A stretch of 64,000 nt of DNA from Opitutaceae bacterium TAV5 (GTDB lineage: Bacteria > Verrucomicrobiota > Verrucomicrobiia > Opitutales > Opitutaceae), in NCBI GenBank assembly GCA_000242935.3, contig CP007053.1, positions 2,217,001 through 2,281,000 on the forward strand, in the 5' to 3' direction. Below, piece by piece: positions 1,405 to 7,780 of the stretch. The notes beneath the pieces are model-generated. The model saw only the letters and a list, made by a program, of their open reading frames with translations. It did not search any database and was not told the origin of the DNA. Both the position numbers and the translations under genes were made by a program. Position 1 is the stretch's first letter, and every line of letters starts with the position of its first letter.

Positions 1405-1568
1405 GACGCGTGAACCGTCATCACTAACGCCGTTCGGGCGGCGATTGCAAATCCCGGGAACAGCACAGTACGGCATCTTTTTCCACATATCACTTCGGCT
1501 CCATCGCTTCCGGTTTTGCAAAAACGGGGATGCCGCATTCACTGGAAACAACTGCCACTTCACATATC

Positions 1569-4500
1569 ATGCCTGACCAACCTTCAGCCCGCGCCGGCTT
1601 TTTTCGCCGTCGCCGCCGCCTGCTGATCATCATCGCGACGATCCTCGTTGTGCTTGTCGCATTCGCCTTTCTGGGGTTGCCGCCCATCGTCAGGGCGCAG
1701 GCCGTCAAACGCCTGTCCGCCGAACTCGACCGGCCCGTTGCCATCGAACGCCTGCGGCTCAATCCGCTGACGTTTTCCGCCACCATCGACGGGCTCGCCA
1801 TCACCGACCATGACGGTCGCAATCTCGTCAGCTGGCGACGGCTCTACGTCGATTTCGATTTCTGGCGGCTCGTCACCGGCGAGATCGGTTTCAGCGAAGT
1901 GTTTCTCGACGGCTTCGCCGGCCGCGTCGTGTTGCAACGTGACGGCACGTTCAATTTTTCCGATCTGATCCCGCCGCCCTCCGCCCAGACCGCTCCGCCG
2001 GCCGAAGACAAAAAAAATGCCTGGCCGCTGCGCATCGGCAAACTCGCCGTCACCGACGCCCGCCTCGATTTCACGGACGAGACCCGCTCCCGGCCCTTCG
2101 CCACGACGGTCGGCCCGGTGAGTTTTGTCCTGGAAAACTTCCGCACCGTCGCCACCGAAGCCCATGCGCCCTACACCTTCCGGGCCGTCACCGAATCCGG
2201 CGAACATTTTTCCTGGAGCGGTACCGTCAACAGCCAGCCAGCGAGCTCCGCCGGGGAATTCCGTCTCGGCGGCATCGCGCTCAAAAAATACGCGCCCTAC
2301 TATGCGCCGTATTTCCGCGGCGACATCCTCGGCGGCACGCTCGACATCGCCGCCCGCTACGCGTTCAACCTCGGCGAGACCACCCGCCTGCTGACCGTAT
2401 CGGACGGATCCCTCCACATCACCGGCCTCCAGATCGCCCCGGCCGGCGACAACACACCCGTCATCGACCTGCCTGCGCTCGATGTGGAAGGCATTGATGC
2501 CGACGCCCTCAAACCCACCGCCACCATCCGGCGGATCTCCTCGACCCACGGCCACATCCACCTGCAACGCGAGGCCAACGGCTCCCTCAATCTCCTCGGT
2601 TTGCTCCCGGCCGCCGATGATGACGATGAGGATGAAAAAGCCGCCGCCGCCGCGCCGACGACCCCGCCGCCTGCGTCCCGGGCCAGCGCCTTTCCCGCCC
2701 TGCCCGATGTGAAAATTGCCGAGTTCGCGATCAACGATCTGGCGGTCGTTGTCGACGACCTCGCCACGCCGACGCCTGCGCGCAACATCGTCGAGGGCAT
2801 CGGATTCACTCTCAAAAATATCTCGCTTTCCGAACCCGCCACGCCCGTGGCGCTGACCCTGGAAGCGCAATTCCCGCCCGGCGGCCGGCTCCGCATCGAC
2901 GGTCCGGTCACGCCGGCGACCGCCGCCGCCACCCTCGCCATCGACGTGCAGGCGCTGCCGCTTGCGGGCATCACACCCTACCTCGAACCCTTTCTCAACC
3001 TGCGCATCGCCGGCGGAAACGTCGGGGTGAAGGGCGAGGCCCGTTACGGAAACGGCGAGGCCGGGTTCAAGGGGGACCTTGCCGTCAACCGCTTCAGCAC
3101 CGTCGATGGCGTGCTCGCCGAGGATTTTGTGAAATTTTCCTCGCTCGGGATCACCGGTATCGACGCAAGCACTACCTTACCCGAGCCCCGCGTCACCGCC
3201 CGCGTCGATGCGATCCGGCTCGTCGATCCTTCGGCGCGCTTTGCCGTCAACGCGGACGGCACCACCAATTTTTCCAACATCCTGCGCAGCGGCGAAGCGC
3301 CGGCTTCTTCCGCCGCTCCCGCCGCATCCGGCGCGGCGGGGGCTCCTGCTCCCGAATCCGCGGTCACCACCGGACCGGCGGCATCACCAGCGGTTGACTG
3401 GTCGGTCGGAAAAATCGAGCTCGCCAACGGCAGCTTCGCGTTTGCCGACCGTTCGCAGAAACCGGCAGTGCGCGCCGGGCTCGATGCGTTCTCCGGCACC
3501 GTCACCGGCCTGTCCTCCGACAACCCTGCGCGAGCCGACCTGCAGCTCTCCGGCAAGATCGGCGGCACCGGCATCCTCGAGATCGCCGGGAAGCTCGACC
3601 CGCGTGCGCTCACGCACGAACCGGGCGCTGCCACCGAGATAAAGATCGGCCTGCGTGGCGTGGATCTCACGCCCGCCTCGCCCTACGCGGGACGTTATGC
3701 GGGCTACGAACTGGCCCGCGCCAATCTCGCCCTCGACGTCGGCACCCGGCTGGAGAGCCGGAAGGTGCGTAGTGACAATGTTATTACGCTCAACCAGTTC
3801 ACCTTCGGCAACCCGACCAACCATCCCGACGCGACCAAACTCCCCGTGCGGCTCGCCGTCGCGTTGCTGAAGGACACGTCGGGCAACATCGTCATCGACG
3901 TGCCCGTGCAGGGCGATCTCGACGACCCCGAATTCCGCATCGGCCGCGTCGTCTGGCGCGTGATTCTCAACCTCGTGACCAAGGCCGCCACCTCGCCCTT
4001 CTCGCTCATCGGCTCGATGTTCGGCGGCGGCGGAGAGGAACTCGCCTGGCAGGAATTCGAGCCCGGCGCCGCCGACCCGCTCGAGAGCGAGATCAAAAAA
4101 ATCGAAACCCTCCGCAAGGCCCTGCAGGCCCGCCCCGCGCTCAACCTTGACATCACCGGAAGTTTCGATGCCGAAGCCGATACCGAGGCCCTGCGCCGCC
4201 TCCGGCTCGCCCGGGAAATCCGCGCCGCACGCTGGGAAGAGTTGCGCGCCCGGGATGCCGATACGCCGCCGCCGGAACAGATCACTGTCGCGCCCGAGGA
4301 TGAAGCCCGCATCGTGTCCACCCTCTTTGCCGCACGTTTTCCCGACGGCCTTCCGTCCCCGTCCGCATCGCCCGCAGCCGAAGGAAAAACCGGAGACGGC
4401 CCGGCCAATGCCGATATCGCTGCTACCTCCGGCGGCGCCTCTCCTCCCGCTTCCGTAGCCGCTCCGTCTTCCGCCGGCGTTATCCGGAAGGAACGCCAGT

Positions 4501-4880
4501 CTGATCCGTACCTGACCAACCGGGGCCAGTTTGCCCGCGACCCGTGGGCGCCGGTCGTTGCAGGCAAGGCGGATTCTTCCGTGTCCGGCCGGTCCGGGCC
4601 CAGCGGCTCCGCATCTCTCCCGCGACGTGCTGCCGCCGCGACCGCGACACCGGGTGGCGAGGAGGTGGCAGCCGGCGAACTGACTCCGGAACAGATGCGT
4701 GCCGCCCTCACCTCGACGATCGAAGTCACAGACGACGACCTGCGTGAACTCGCCACCCGCCGCGCCGAGCATGTGCGCGCCGCGCTCCTCGAAGGCGGAG
4801 CGGTGGGGGCGGACCGGCTCTTCGTCGTCACCTCGGCGACCGAAGGCCAGGGTTCGCGGGTGCTTCTGCAATTGAGGTAA
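1569..4880 (+). CDS. DUF748/AsmA-like envelope protein
   Basis: Large protein of about 1103 residues with one N-terminal membrane segment (LLIIIATILVVLVAFAFLGL) after an Arg-rich stretch, then a long repetitive periplasmic body of the DUF748/AsmA type. Short repeated blocks such as LDFTDETRSRPFATTVGP and FAFADRSQKPAVRAGLDAF are typical of DUF748. Two Ala/Pro-rich linkers occur, one with the acidic run DDDDEDE near residue 350 and one near 930-1040. The C-terminus (RAEHVRAALLEGGAVGADRLFVV) resembles the end of other DUF748 proteins. AsmA-like proteins are linked to lipid transport and outer-membrane homeostasis; that role here is inferred. An in-frame ATG at 1530 is an alternative start, but starting at 1569 leaves the usual short basic leader before the membrane segment. 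Confidence 0.8.
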   Translation: MPDQPSARAGFFRRRRRLLIIIATILVVLVAFAFLGLPPIVRAQAVKRLSAELDRPVAIERLRLNPLTFSATIDGLAITDHDGRNLVSWRRLYVDFDFWRLVTGEIGFSEVFLDGFAGRVVLQRDGTFNFSDLIPPPSAQTAPPAEDKKNAWPLRIGKLAVTDARLDFTDETRSRPFATTVGPVSFVLENFRTVATEAHAPYTFRAVTESGEHFSWSGTVNSQPASSAGEFRLGGIALKKYAPYYAPYFRGDILGGTLDIAARYAFNLGETTRLLTVSDGSLHITGLQIAPAGDNTPVIDLPALDVEGIDADALKPTATIRRISSTHGHIHLQREANGSLNLLGLLPAADDDDEDEKAAAAAPTTPPPASRASAFPALPDVKIAEFAINDLAVVVDDLATPTPARNIVEGIGFTLKNISLSEPATPVALTLEAQFPPGGRLRIDGPVTPATAAATLAIDVQALPLAGITPYLEPFLNLRIAGGNVGVKGEARYGNGEAGFKGDLAVNRFSTVDGVLAEDFVKFSSLGITGIDASTTLPEPRVTARVDAIRLVDPSARFAVNADGTTNFSNILRSGEAPASSAAPAASGAAGAPAPESAVTTGPAASPAVDWSVGKIELANGSFAFADRSQKPAVRAGLDAFSGTVTGLSSDNPARADLQLSGKIGGTGILEIAGKLDPRALTHEPGAATEIKIGLRGVDLTPASPYAGRYAGYELARANLALDVGTRLESRKVRSDNVITLNQFTFGNPTNHPDATKLPVRLAVALLKDTSGNIVIDVPVQGDLDDPEFRIGRVVWRVILNLVTKAATSPFSLIGSMFGGGGEELAWQEFEPGAADPLESEIKKIETLRKALQARPALNLDITGSFDAEADTEALRRLRLAREIRAARWEELRARDADTPPPEQITVAPEDEARIVSTLFAARFPDGLPSPSASPAAEGKTGDGPANADIAATSGGASPPASVAAPSSAGVIRKERQSDPYLTNRGQFARDPWAPVVAGKADSSVSGRSGPSGSASLPRRAAAATATPGGEEVAAGELTPEQMRAALTSTIEVTDDDLRELATRRAEHVRAALLEGGAVGADRLFVVTSATEGQGSRVLLQLR

Positions 4881-5451: not shown

Positions 5452-5528
<77 letters not shown>

Positions 5529-5752
5529 AAATTCCGAAAGGGGTGAGAGCAAGCCTGATGGCACGCGCAGAAGCAAGCGGTTTTTTACACCGTCCAAAAC
5601 CCGCCCGCACATCCGCCGCAACCGGCCGGAACCGAAGAACTTCACGCCCCATTTGACACCCCGGCCGGAGATCGACAGTAACAACCTTGCTCCCGCCAAC
5701 GTCCTCCGGTCATCCGGCACCCGCTCCTCCCGCACCCATCCCGCAACACCGC

Positions 5753-7231
5753 ATGAACTGGCAGGAACTCATCACCCGGCAGACCACTTCCCTCGCCACG
5801 GCTTACGTGGTCCTTTGCGTGTGGATGACGGGCGGCGTCATCAGCGCACGCTTCAGCCGGATGCGTCCGGAACTGATGCCCTGGATCAACCTCCTCAGCC
5901 TCGTTGCCGGCCCGGTCGGCTGGACGGCGCACCTGCTCTCGCATGCCGTGCCCTGGCTCTCCGGCGAAAGCTCCGGGCGGCGCTCCGGCCGCACCGGCGC
6001 CTCCGGCCATGGCGGCATCGCGTTCGCCATCCTCTCCGCCGCGCTCGACCAGGGCGCGAGCGATGTCCACATCGAGCCGCAGGAAGGCGGTTACGTGGTG
6101 CGCTTCCGGATGTTCGGCCTGTTGCGCGAAAACCGCCGCCTCAGCCAGGCCGCCGGCGAAGGCGTGGCCGCCGTTTACAAGGTGCTGGCCGAACTCAACA
6201 CCGCCGATCGCGCGCACATGCAGGACGGCCGTTTCCGCTGGACCGCCCCCGGCTCCGGCCACGTGCTCGACGTGCGCATCGCCACGTCCCCCGCGCTCAC
6301 CGGCGAAAAGATCGCCCTGCGCCTCCTCAACCGCCCCGCCTCGCTCCTGCGGCTCGACAAACTCGGCATGTCGCCCGCCCGGTGCGACGCCATCCGCCGT
6401 CACCTTCGCCAGCCCGAAGGGCTCGTCCTCGTCGCCGGCCCCACCGGCTCGGGCAAGACGTGCACCTCCTACGCCCTGCTCCAGGAAGTGTCCGGGCCGG
6501 CGGTCAACACCGTGACGATCGAGGATCCCGTGGAGTACGCGCTGCCGCACGCCACGCAGATCGGCATCAACCCGAAGATGGGAGTCACGTTCGAATCCGG
6601 CCTGCGCACCGTGCTCCGGCAGGATCCCAACGTGATTTTCGTCGGCGAAATGCGCGACCCCGAATCATTCCGCATCGGCCTGCGCGCCGCCATGAGCGGA
6701 CACCTCGTCATCAGCACCATGCACGCGCGGGACACGGTGAGCGCGCTCACGGCGCTGCGAAATCTCGAACTCGACCGTCAGGTGCTTTCCGCCGCCCTGC
6801 GGATGGTCGTCTCGCAGCGTCTCGTCCGGGAACTCTGTCCCGATTGCCGCGAATGGGCTCCGCCCGATGCCGACGCAGCAGGGTTTTTCGAAAACAACGC
6901 CGCCGGCGCCCGCACCGCTCCCGGCAGCGACGCCGCGGACACTGCGGACGCACTCCGCCACGCGCTGCCGGAGCAGATCGCCGGACCGTCCGCCCGGGGT
7001 TGCCCGAAATGCCACCAGGGTTTTGTCGGCCGCACCGGCATTTTCGAAATCCTGCGCGTGGACAACCGCGTCCGTGCCTGGCTGGTCTCGGGCGAACCCG
7101 AAGGGAAACTCCGCGCCGATCTCGCCGCCGGCGACTTCGTTTTCATGCGCGACGACGCCCGGCAAAAAATCATCGAGGGCCGTATCTGGATCGAGGATGC
7201 GATCCGCGCTCTCGGCATGAACGAAACCTGA
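5753..7231 (+). CDS. GspE/PilB-type secretion ATPase with N-terminal membrane anchor
   Basis: Hexameric secretion/pilus ATPase of the type II secretion and type IV pilus family, 492 residues from this start. Landmarks are Walker A GPTGSGKT at 229-236, the Asp box TIEDPVE at 256-262, Walker B VIFVGEMRD at 294-302, the His box STMHARD at 321-327, and a zinc knuckle made by C362, C365, C417 and C420. It lacks the usual N-terminal MshEN/T2SSE-N domain. Instead residues 12-31 and 42-63 look like membrane segments (TSLATAYVVLCVWMTGGVIS and WINLLSLVAGPVGW). The frame extends to an ATG at 5687; 5753 is chosen because the upstream part is Pro-rich and featureless. The next gene is a membrane protein 54 bases downstream, possibly in the same operon. 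Prepilin-like proteins occur elsewhere in the window, but no assembly platform is seen nearby. Confidence 0.85.
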   Translation: MNWQELITRQTTSLATAYVVLCVWMTGGVISARFSRMRPELMPWINLLSLVAGPVGWTAHLLSHAVPWLSGESSGRRSGRTGASGHGGIAFAILSAALDQGASDVHIEPQEGGYVVRFRMFGLLRENRRLSQAAGEGVAAVYKVLAELNTADRAHMQDGRFRWTAPGSGHVLDVRIATSPALTGEKIALRLLNRPASLLRLDKLGMSPARCDAIRRHLRQPEGLVLVAGPTGSGKTCTSYALLQEVSGPAVNTVTIEDPVEYALPHATQIGINPKMGVTFESGLRTVLRQDPNVIFVGEMRDPESFRIGLRAAMSGHLVISTMHARDTVSALTALRNLELDRQVLSAALRMVVSQRLVRELCPDCREWAPPDADAAGFFENNAAGARTAPGSDAADTADALRHALPEQIAGPSARGCPKCHQGFVGRTGIFEILRVDNRVRAWLVSGEPEGKLRADLAAGDFVFMRDDARQKIIEGRIWIEDAIRALGMNET

Positions 7232-7285: not shown

Positions 7286-7780
7286 ATGAAATTTCTCAAC
7301 GACTGGGTAACGCTCGGCCTCGCTTTCGGGCTCGTCTTCGGCGGGGCGGTCGTCGGCCGCCGGCTCGGCTCGTTCGCCGCGATCTGGCTGGCCGGAGCCG
7401 TGTGCCTGACATTCCGGCTGGCCGATGCCATCTGGAAACCGGGCGTGGCCGAGCTGCACAGATTTGCTCCCGGTATTGAATCAGCGGATACGGTCTCGCT
7501 GACCTGGGTGCTGCTGTTTCTCGGGCCGCTCGTGCCGGTGGTGGCGCTCGTGCTCGTGCTGCAACCCGGCAAACATGCGCCGTTGCCGCGCGCGGCGGAG
7601 GCGGCGGCCGGCGTTATCGCCGGCCTGGTTGCCGGCATCGTGCTGCTGGCCGGGCTCGTGCAATCACAGGCCTTCAACCCCGAAGTACGCGCCAACATGC
7701 CGTACACCTGGCGGTGGGCGCAGCCCGCGCTGGAAGCGGCCGGGCAGACGCACACGAAACCGGCGGACCCAAAGAAATAA
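7286..7780 (+). CDS. Small multi-pass membrane protein, function unknown
   Basis: 164 residues with about four hydrophobic segments: GLAFGLVFGGAVVG, SFAAIWLAGAVCLTF, WVLLFLGPLVPVVALVLVLQ and GVIAGLVAGIVLLAGLV. The small-residue-rich helices and layout recall CvpA-like proteins, but I do not recognise a specific family. The C-terminus is polar and lysine-rich. It starts 54 bases after the membrane-anchored GspE-type ATPase in the same direction, so the two may be co-transcribed and could work together in the membrane. Confidence 0.6.
   Translation: MKFLNDWVTLGLAFGLVFGGAVVGRRLGSFAAIWLAGAVCLTFRLADAIWKPGVAELHRFAPGIESADTVSLTWVLLFLGPLVPVVALVLVLQPGKHAPLPRAAEAAAGVIAGLVAGIVLLAGLVQSQAFNPEVRANMPYTWRWAQPALEAAGQTHTKPADPKK

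Follow-up and report, generated by a model that had tools for sequence, protein, structure and literature searches.

A GspE/PilB-like ATPase with a predicted membrane anchor and its conserved CvpA-like neighbour in Opitutaceae bacterium TAV5 and other Verrucomicrobiota

The locus and the ATPase core

The stretch of DNA analysed here (the window) is 64,000 nucleotides long and covers positions 2,217,001-2,281,000 of the chromosome of the termite-gut verrucomicrobium Opitutaceae bacterium TAV5 (PMC4358385). The chromosome is represented by a contig of 7,317,842 bases and a second contig is 99,831 bases long. The locus consists of an ATPase gene followed, after a spacing of 54 bases, by the gene of a small membrane protein. 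Their features are given below in window coordinates.

5753-7231, + strand: GspE/PilB-like ATPase, predicted to be membrane-anchored, 492 aa, ATG start (N-terminus common to orthologs)
5792-5848, + strand: hydrophobic stretch 1, aa 14-32, predicted N-out/C-in transmembrane helix with an invariant W24 (hydropathy and alignment; AF2 helix 3-34 at low confidence)
5849-5884, + strand: Arg-rich loop, aa 33-44, predicted cytoplasmic
5885-5941, + strand: hydrophobic stretch 2, aa 45-63, INLLSLVAGPVGWTAHLLS, predicted re-entrant or monotopic, with an invariant Gly-Pro (hydropathy, alignment and topology parity of kinase fusions)
6026-7204, + strand: N2D and C-terminal ATPase domain (T2SSE, aa 92-484)
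6437-6460, + strand: Walker A, GPTGSGKT (aa 229), by motif reading, as for the next five
6515-6538, + strand: Asp box, TIEDPVEY (aa 255)
6632-6658, + strand: Walker B, VIFVGEMRD (aa 294)
6698-6724, + strand: His box, GHLVISTMH (aa 316)
6836-6847, + strand: tetracysteine zinc site, first CxxC (Cys 362/365)
7001-7012, + strand: tetracysteine zinc site, second CxxC (Cys 417/420)
7286-7780, + strand: CvpA-like four-helix membrane protein, 164 aa, constant neighbour conserved behind the ATPase (AF2 pLDDT 80.6)

The Pfam T2SSE model (PF00437, cut-off 24.9 bits) matches residues 92-484 of the ATPase with an E-value of 1.9e-95 and 320 bits. Alignment to the solved structures of GspE, PilF and PilB also starts at residue 92, which indicates a complete N2D and a complete C-terminal ATPase domain. 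Walker A, Asp box, Walker B, His box and the four cysteines are all intact, in agreement with an earlier sequence-only reading of this DNA, which had called the core complete. Together with the domain match, these motifs make the protein a member of the T2SSE (PilT/VirB11) superfamily. It scores about half the equivalog cut-offs of GspE (TIGR02533, 341 bits against 630) and PilB (TIGR02538, 301 bits against 675), and lies below those of ComGA (NF041000, 209 bits against 300) and PilT. Because these scores are far below the curated cut-offs, it is not a recognised member of any of these four groups.

As the same reading had noted, the usual MshEN (N1) domain is missing: PF05157 gives no match in the window ATPase and matches five other ATPases of the genome. 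The TAV5 genome contains 13 T2SSE matches and about six T2SSF proteins, with one set on the 99.8-kb plasmid (C2:43326-54267).

GspE and PilB have in common with the window ATPase the N2D and C-terminal ATPase domains, the Walker A and B motifs, the Asp and His boxes and the tetracysteine zinc site. They are understood to be soluble rings which dock on GspL or PilM and push on GspF or PilC. ComGA and PilT, the short members of the family, lack the N1 domain as the window ATPase does and are soluble; to our knowledge, neither has an anchor or a CvpA partner. The docking of PilB in a socket of PilM, from where it pushes on PilC, has been described (PMC11656802). In contrast to GspE and PilB, the window ATPase has no N1/MshEN domain, carries what appears to be an integral membrane anchor instead and is paired with a CvpA-like protein rather than with GspF.

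The N-terminal segment and its topology

The position of the N1/MshEN domain is taken by about 90 residues with two hydrophobic stretches, whose mean Kyte-Doolittle values are 1.76 (stretch 1, about aa 14-32) and 1.22 (stretch 2, aa 45-63). Among the five of nine assembly-type ATPases of TAV5 that were measured (all except L004, L006, L007 and L009), the value of 1.76 in the window protein compares with 0.8-1.3 in the four others. Conventional ATPases of the order have no comparable conserved segment at this place; a 19-residue span reaches 1.9 in one case.

The N-terminus starts at the same Met and is collinear in six Opitutaceae-group homologs with 62-72% identity, namely Geminisphaera colitermitum TAV2, Opitutaceae MAGs and two MAGs labelled Akkermansia. 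The same two stretches are present in homologs from family f24 (about 50% identical), and the segments are likewise conserved in families f41 and f46. The pN/pS for aa 1-63 is 0.17-0.56, which points to purifying selection. The DNA upstream of 5753 is not alignable as protein among the relatives, and the TAV2 gene has an in-frame stop upstream of its ATG. The reading frame could formally start at a TTG at 5687; homology starts at 5753. The predicted start codon at 5753 holds, since this N-terminus is common to all close homologs and evolves under purifying selection.

The alternative that the anchor is an artefact, because the real start lies downstream of the hydrophobic segments or because close homologs have an ordinary N-terminus, has some points in its favour. 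Initiation at the Met codons that follow in frame, at aa 25 and 37, would cut into the anchor, there is no strong Shine-Dalgarno sequence at 5753, and one relative (L070, G096:C220, upstream of 3390) has the conserved anchor in an open frame with no ATG, GTG or TTG before stretch 1, owing to either a non-standard start or an assembly error. However, the relatives equally lack a strong Shine-Dalgarno sequence, the constrained N-terminus from the same Met is found in six of them, it is homologous in other families, and all close homologs share the anchor. We therefore regard an artefact as highly improbable. A promoter scan of the region found nothing.

Over 16 aligned N-termini only W24 of stretch 1 and G53-P54 of stretch 2 are invariant. 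Comparison of the N-terminal modules of Opitutales and f41 with hhalign gives 94.9%, an E-value of 4e-8 and a score of 43.5, against scores of 7-14 for 30 column shuffles; judged by these profiles, the two anchor modules are homologous. Weak matches to the anchor profile (E about 1e-4 to 1e-3) were also seen at G301:C1:191555, G066:C9:51515 and G649:C55:128081 in frames of 383-554 aa, and these are possibly further relatives of the module in other contexts.

Arg and Lys are abundant in the loop that joins the stretches and again in the segment behind stretch 2. The loop is net positive in nearly all members in which both segments were correctly located, the automatic segment picks being wrong for L033, L034 and L127. 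At least four f41 proteins (L116, L117, L127 and L120) give further evidence on topology. Each starts with a Hanks-type kinase, which a hydrophobic segment and a long linker rich in Pro and Ala separate from the two stretches and the ATPase; three of them had the kinase domain scored, and L120 was assigned from its sequence. If the kinase and the ATPase both lie in the cytoplasm, the chain can cross the membrane at just one of the two stretches. Two full transmembrane spans are therefore disfavoured, because the ATPase of the kinase fusions would end up outside and stretch 2 is positive on both flanks. The simplest and most likely reading is that of one transmembrane helix (stretch 1, N-out/C-in) and a re-entrant stretch 2 containing the Gly-Pro. 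AlphaFold (AF2) makes both stretches helical at low confidence, reaching at most about 65 in the N-terminus. The earlier proposal of two hydrophobic membrane segments is upheld as to their presence; both are conserved, and the second of them probably does not span the membrane. Direct anchoring of the ATPase, as had been proposed, is what the sequence predicts.

The CvpA-like partner and the distribution of the pair

The window partner gives no match to the CvpA Pfam model (PF02674, cut-off 29.3 bits). The model matches six of the 11 partner orthologs of the window protein (best 8.6e-8) and 10 of the 18 members of a set built from f41 (best 5e-10), and counterparts behind related anchored ATPases exceed its cut-off with up to 41 bits. 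The partner alignment also recovers plain CvpA proteins from other members of the phylum, whose retrieved gene flanks contain no ATPase, and profile-profile comparison of the partner with these proteins gives E-values of 1e-8 and 2e-9 against a reference alignment of three sequences. The AF2 model of the window partner has the four helices expected of CvpA (residues 2-27, 29-60, 67-92 and 102-129). We therefore place it in the CvpA (colicin V production) superfamily and name it CvpA-like. It resembles CvpA in the four transmembrane helices and in profile similarity, and differs in falling under the Pfam cut-off and in having as neighbour a motor ATPase, for which no description as a CvpA neighbour was found. 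A GspF-like or GspL-like identity received no support from Pfam. A fold search found no significant PDB match (Foldseek) and a low VIA-align Z, an absence which is uninformative, and a sequence search retrieved no solved structure of the partner.

The CvpA-like gene directly adjoins the ATPase gene at 42 loci (11 in Opitutales, 24 in f41 and 7 in f46), and the pairing spans four families of Verrucomicrobiota. In all 11 Opitutales loci a partner ortholog lies directly downstream of the ATPase; in one of them (L069) the contig ends before the anchor. The two genes overlap by four bases in f24. Family f41, which lies outside the class of the window organism, was reached from one profile match, and its protein in L088 is 27% identical to the window protein. 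A search of all 78 f41 genomes with the partner profile gives 24 sites, spread over 23 of them, each site directly behind a gene of the anchored ATPase family, which in G758 is a truncated remnant. The corresponding Fisher value of 3e-20 is only a guide, as it ignores shared ancestry and takes the other 55 genomes to be free of overlooked anchored ATPases. In family f46, found with a combined N-terminal profile, the pair is present in 7 of 7. PF02674 has 10 matches over 26 carrier genomes, all of them in cassettes; nine are the cassette partner and the tenth lies behind a second anchored ATPase.

A phylogenetic tree, with long branches, puts the anchored ATPases on one side of a branch from the conventional ones (support 93/88), and a single origin is likely on this evidence. 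By these comparisons the pair is a conserved unit and the protein predicted at 7286, singled out earlier as a small membrane protein accompanying the ATPase, is a true partner. A decayed ATPase copy that lacks both the anchor and the CvpA gene was seen at L118/L148 (G536:C8), next to an FAD-oxidoreductase-like gene; such a gene also comes after the pair in L088.

Gene neighbourhoods and a proposed mechanism

GspF adjoins the cassette at none of the loci examined, and none of the T2SSF matches of TAV5 lies in or near the window. A check for a GspF gene elsewhere, as had been advised, found T2SSF proteins in 26 of the 26 carrier genomes tested. The partner therefore need not be the platform, and the module may depend on GspF. 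It is conceivable that the anchored ATPase is an accessory motor acting in trans on an ordinary type IV pilus or type II secretion machine of the genome, which it would drive or tune by way of a GspF/PilC from another locus; the anchor would then just hold it at the membrane, and the CvpA-like protein would serve as an adaptor. Besides the presence of GspF in all tested carriers, it would suit this idea that one of the T2SSF proteins of TAV5 (5540450-5541325) has no PF00437 match nearby, and that genes of pilus-type motors flank the pair in f41 (see below). However, the cassette is sporadic, being found in 8 of 252 Opitutaceae, whereas nearly all members of the order have some T2SSE ATPase; the CvpA partner is always retained with the anchor, and GspF is never beside them. 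An accessory role of this kind is, in our estimate, unlikely.

The flanks of the pair contain no conserved gene for a pilin, prepilin peptidase or secretin. The gene order in three f41 genomes is LysM lipoprotein-like, anchored ATPase, CvpA-like, tandem PilT-like, RcpC/CpaB-like and FHA-TadA-like ATPase, the steps being scored in part of the genomes. Four further f41 genomes have a kinase-ATPase or an ATPase, then CvpA-like and tandem PilT, and the order in G536 is PilT, ankyrin-ATPase fusion and CvpA-like. The tandem PilT-like proteins, about 730 aa long with two T2SSE domains, lie directly behind the CvpA-like gene. Their positions, and those of ATPase copies with damaged active sites, are as follows.

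L137:4586-6775, L138:9906-12095, L144:4843-7068 and in L139, L140 and L141: tandem PilT-like proteins (two domains scored in L137 and L144)
L088/L110, L128, L153:5066-6652, L164:3840-5264 and L167:4317-5066: pseudo-ATPases (altered Walker A/B, His box missing, or truncated) with anchor and CvpA neighbour kept

The similarity to Tad/Flp motor genes (TadA/CpaF, RcpC/CpaB) concerns the three f41 genomes; TadB/TadC and a flp pilin were not recognised at those loci and Tad-like genes are absent from the cassette of the window. In L116, L117, L127 and L137 of f41, the GspE-like ATPase is fused to the rear of a Hanks-type Ser/Thr kinase and a stretch resembling a zinc ribbon, and in the G536 fusion (L168:1136-4342) ankyrin repeats take the place of the kinase. 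As predicted from gene content, the f41 context places the module among pilus-type motors with phospho-signalling. A part in anti-phage defence was considered and dropped, as PADLOC gives no match for either window protein and the fused kinase matches kinase-domain models only.

Degenerate Walker A, Walker B or His box, with anchor and CvpA kept, occur in the f41 copies of G421, G470 and G414 and in the second copy of G422, a genome with one intact and one degenerate pair. The loss of these residues in several f41 copies fits poorly with an obligatory motor. It is worth considering that the pair is a signalling or envelope-homeostasis device and not a filament motor, in which a nucleotide-dependent ATPase-like scaffold would control a CvpA channel or transporter on inputs from kinase, FHA or ankyrin domains. 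The kinase and ankyrin fusions, the FHA protein nearby and the pseudo-ATPase copies with anchor and CvpA kept would fit such a device, as would the role of enteric CvpA, which concerns bile-salt resistance and the export of colicin V and not pili (PMC6705877). Most copies, including that of the window, nevertheless keep every catalytic motif and the zinc site, and the f41 neighbours are pilus-type motors; we consider a signalling device quite unlikely.

We lean slightly towards the reading that the two genes form one membrane module, in which an anchored ring motor and a dedicated CvpA-like partner pass force to a substrate. The ATPase, as a member of the PilT/VirB11 superfamily, would form a hexamer, and its own N-terminal anchor, the putative N-out/C-in helix and re-entrant Gly-Pro segment, would attach the cytoplasmic ring to the inner membrane. 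The anchor would thereby replace the N1 domain, which tethers GspE/PilB to GspL/PilM. The four-helix CvpA-like protein would be its dedicated membrane partner in physical contact with the ring and would serve as platform or gate: it would most likely take up the ATP-driven movements of the ring and transmit them to a substrate, which could plausibly be a type IV pilin-like protein or a secreted envelope protein. An attached or nearby kinase or FHA protein may put the motor under phosphorylation control.

The sequence-only reading had gone further and suggested a minimal assembly machine. A machine of this kind working without GspF is a possible reading, though the pair in Opitutaceae has no linked filament subunit or secretin, GspF is encoded in every tested carrier, and several relatives of the ATPase have degenerate active sites. 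The stronger form, a GspF-independent, ATP-driven membrane machine with CvpA as its platform, representing a separate motor class of the PilT/VirB11 superfamily and the first energy-coupling partner of CvpA, appears doubtful to us.

CvpA is linked to colicin V export and deoxycholate (bile-salt) resistance in enteric bacteria by an unknown mechanism (PMC6705877). Among open-licence papers we found none linking CvpA to a secretion ATPase and none on an anchored PilB/GspE; as far as found, the pairing of an anchored motor with CvpA has not been described before. A lineage of membrane-protein motors inseparable from a CvpA-like partner suggests that the docking function is replaceable, and perhaps that of the platform too. 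CvpA, which enteric pathogens need for deoxycholate resistance (PMC6705877), gains a concrete candidate partner, and we offer the hypothesis that an ATPase may move CvpA-type proteins, gate them or use them as a base.

There is no wider conserved operon in Opitutaceae, where only the pair is shared, apart from a tRNA-Pro common to TAV5 and TAV2. This tRNA-Pro(ggg) gene lies just upstream of the cassette (window 5452-5528, - strand; L031:7624-7700 in TAV2). Two Opitutaceae-group MAGs have a gene for a PilT-like ATPase upstream of the cassette, at a distance of a few kb (L033 3732-4826 and L034 1933-3102). Positions 1530-4880 of the window encode an AsmA-superfamily DUF748 protein of 1116 aa (4e-236).
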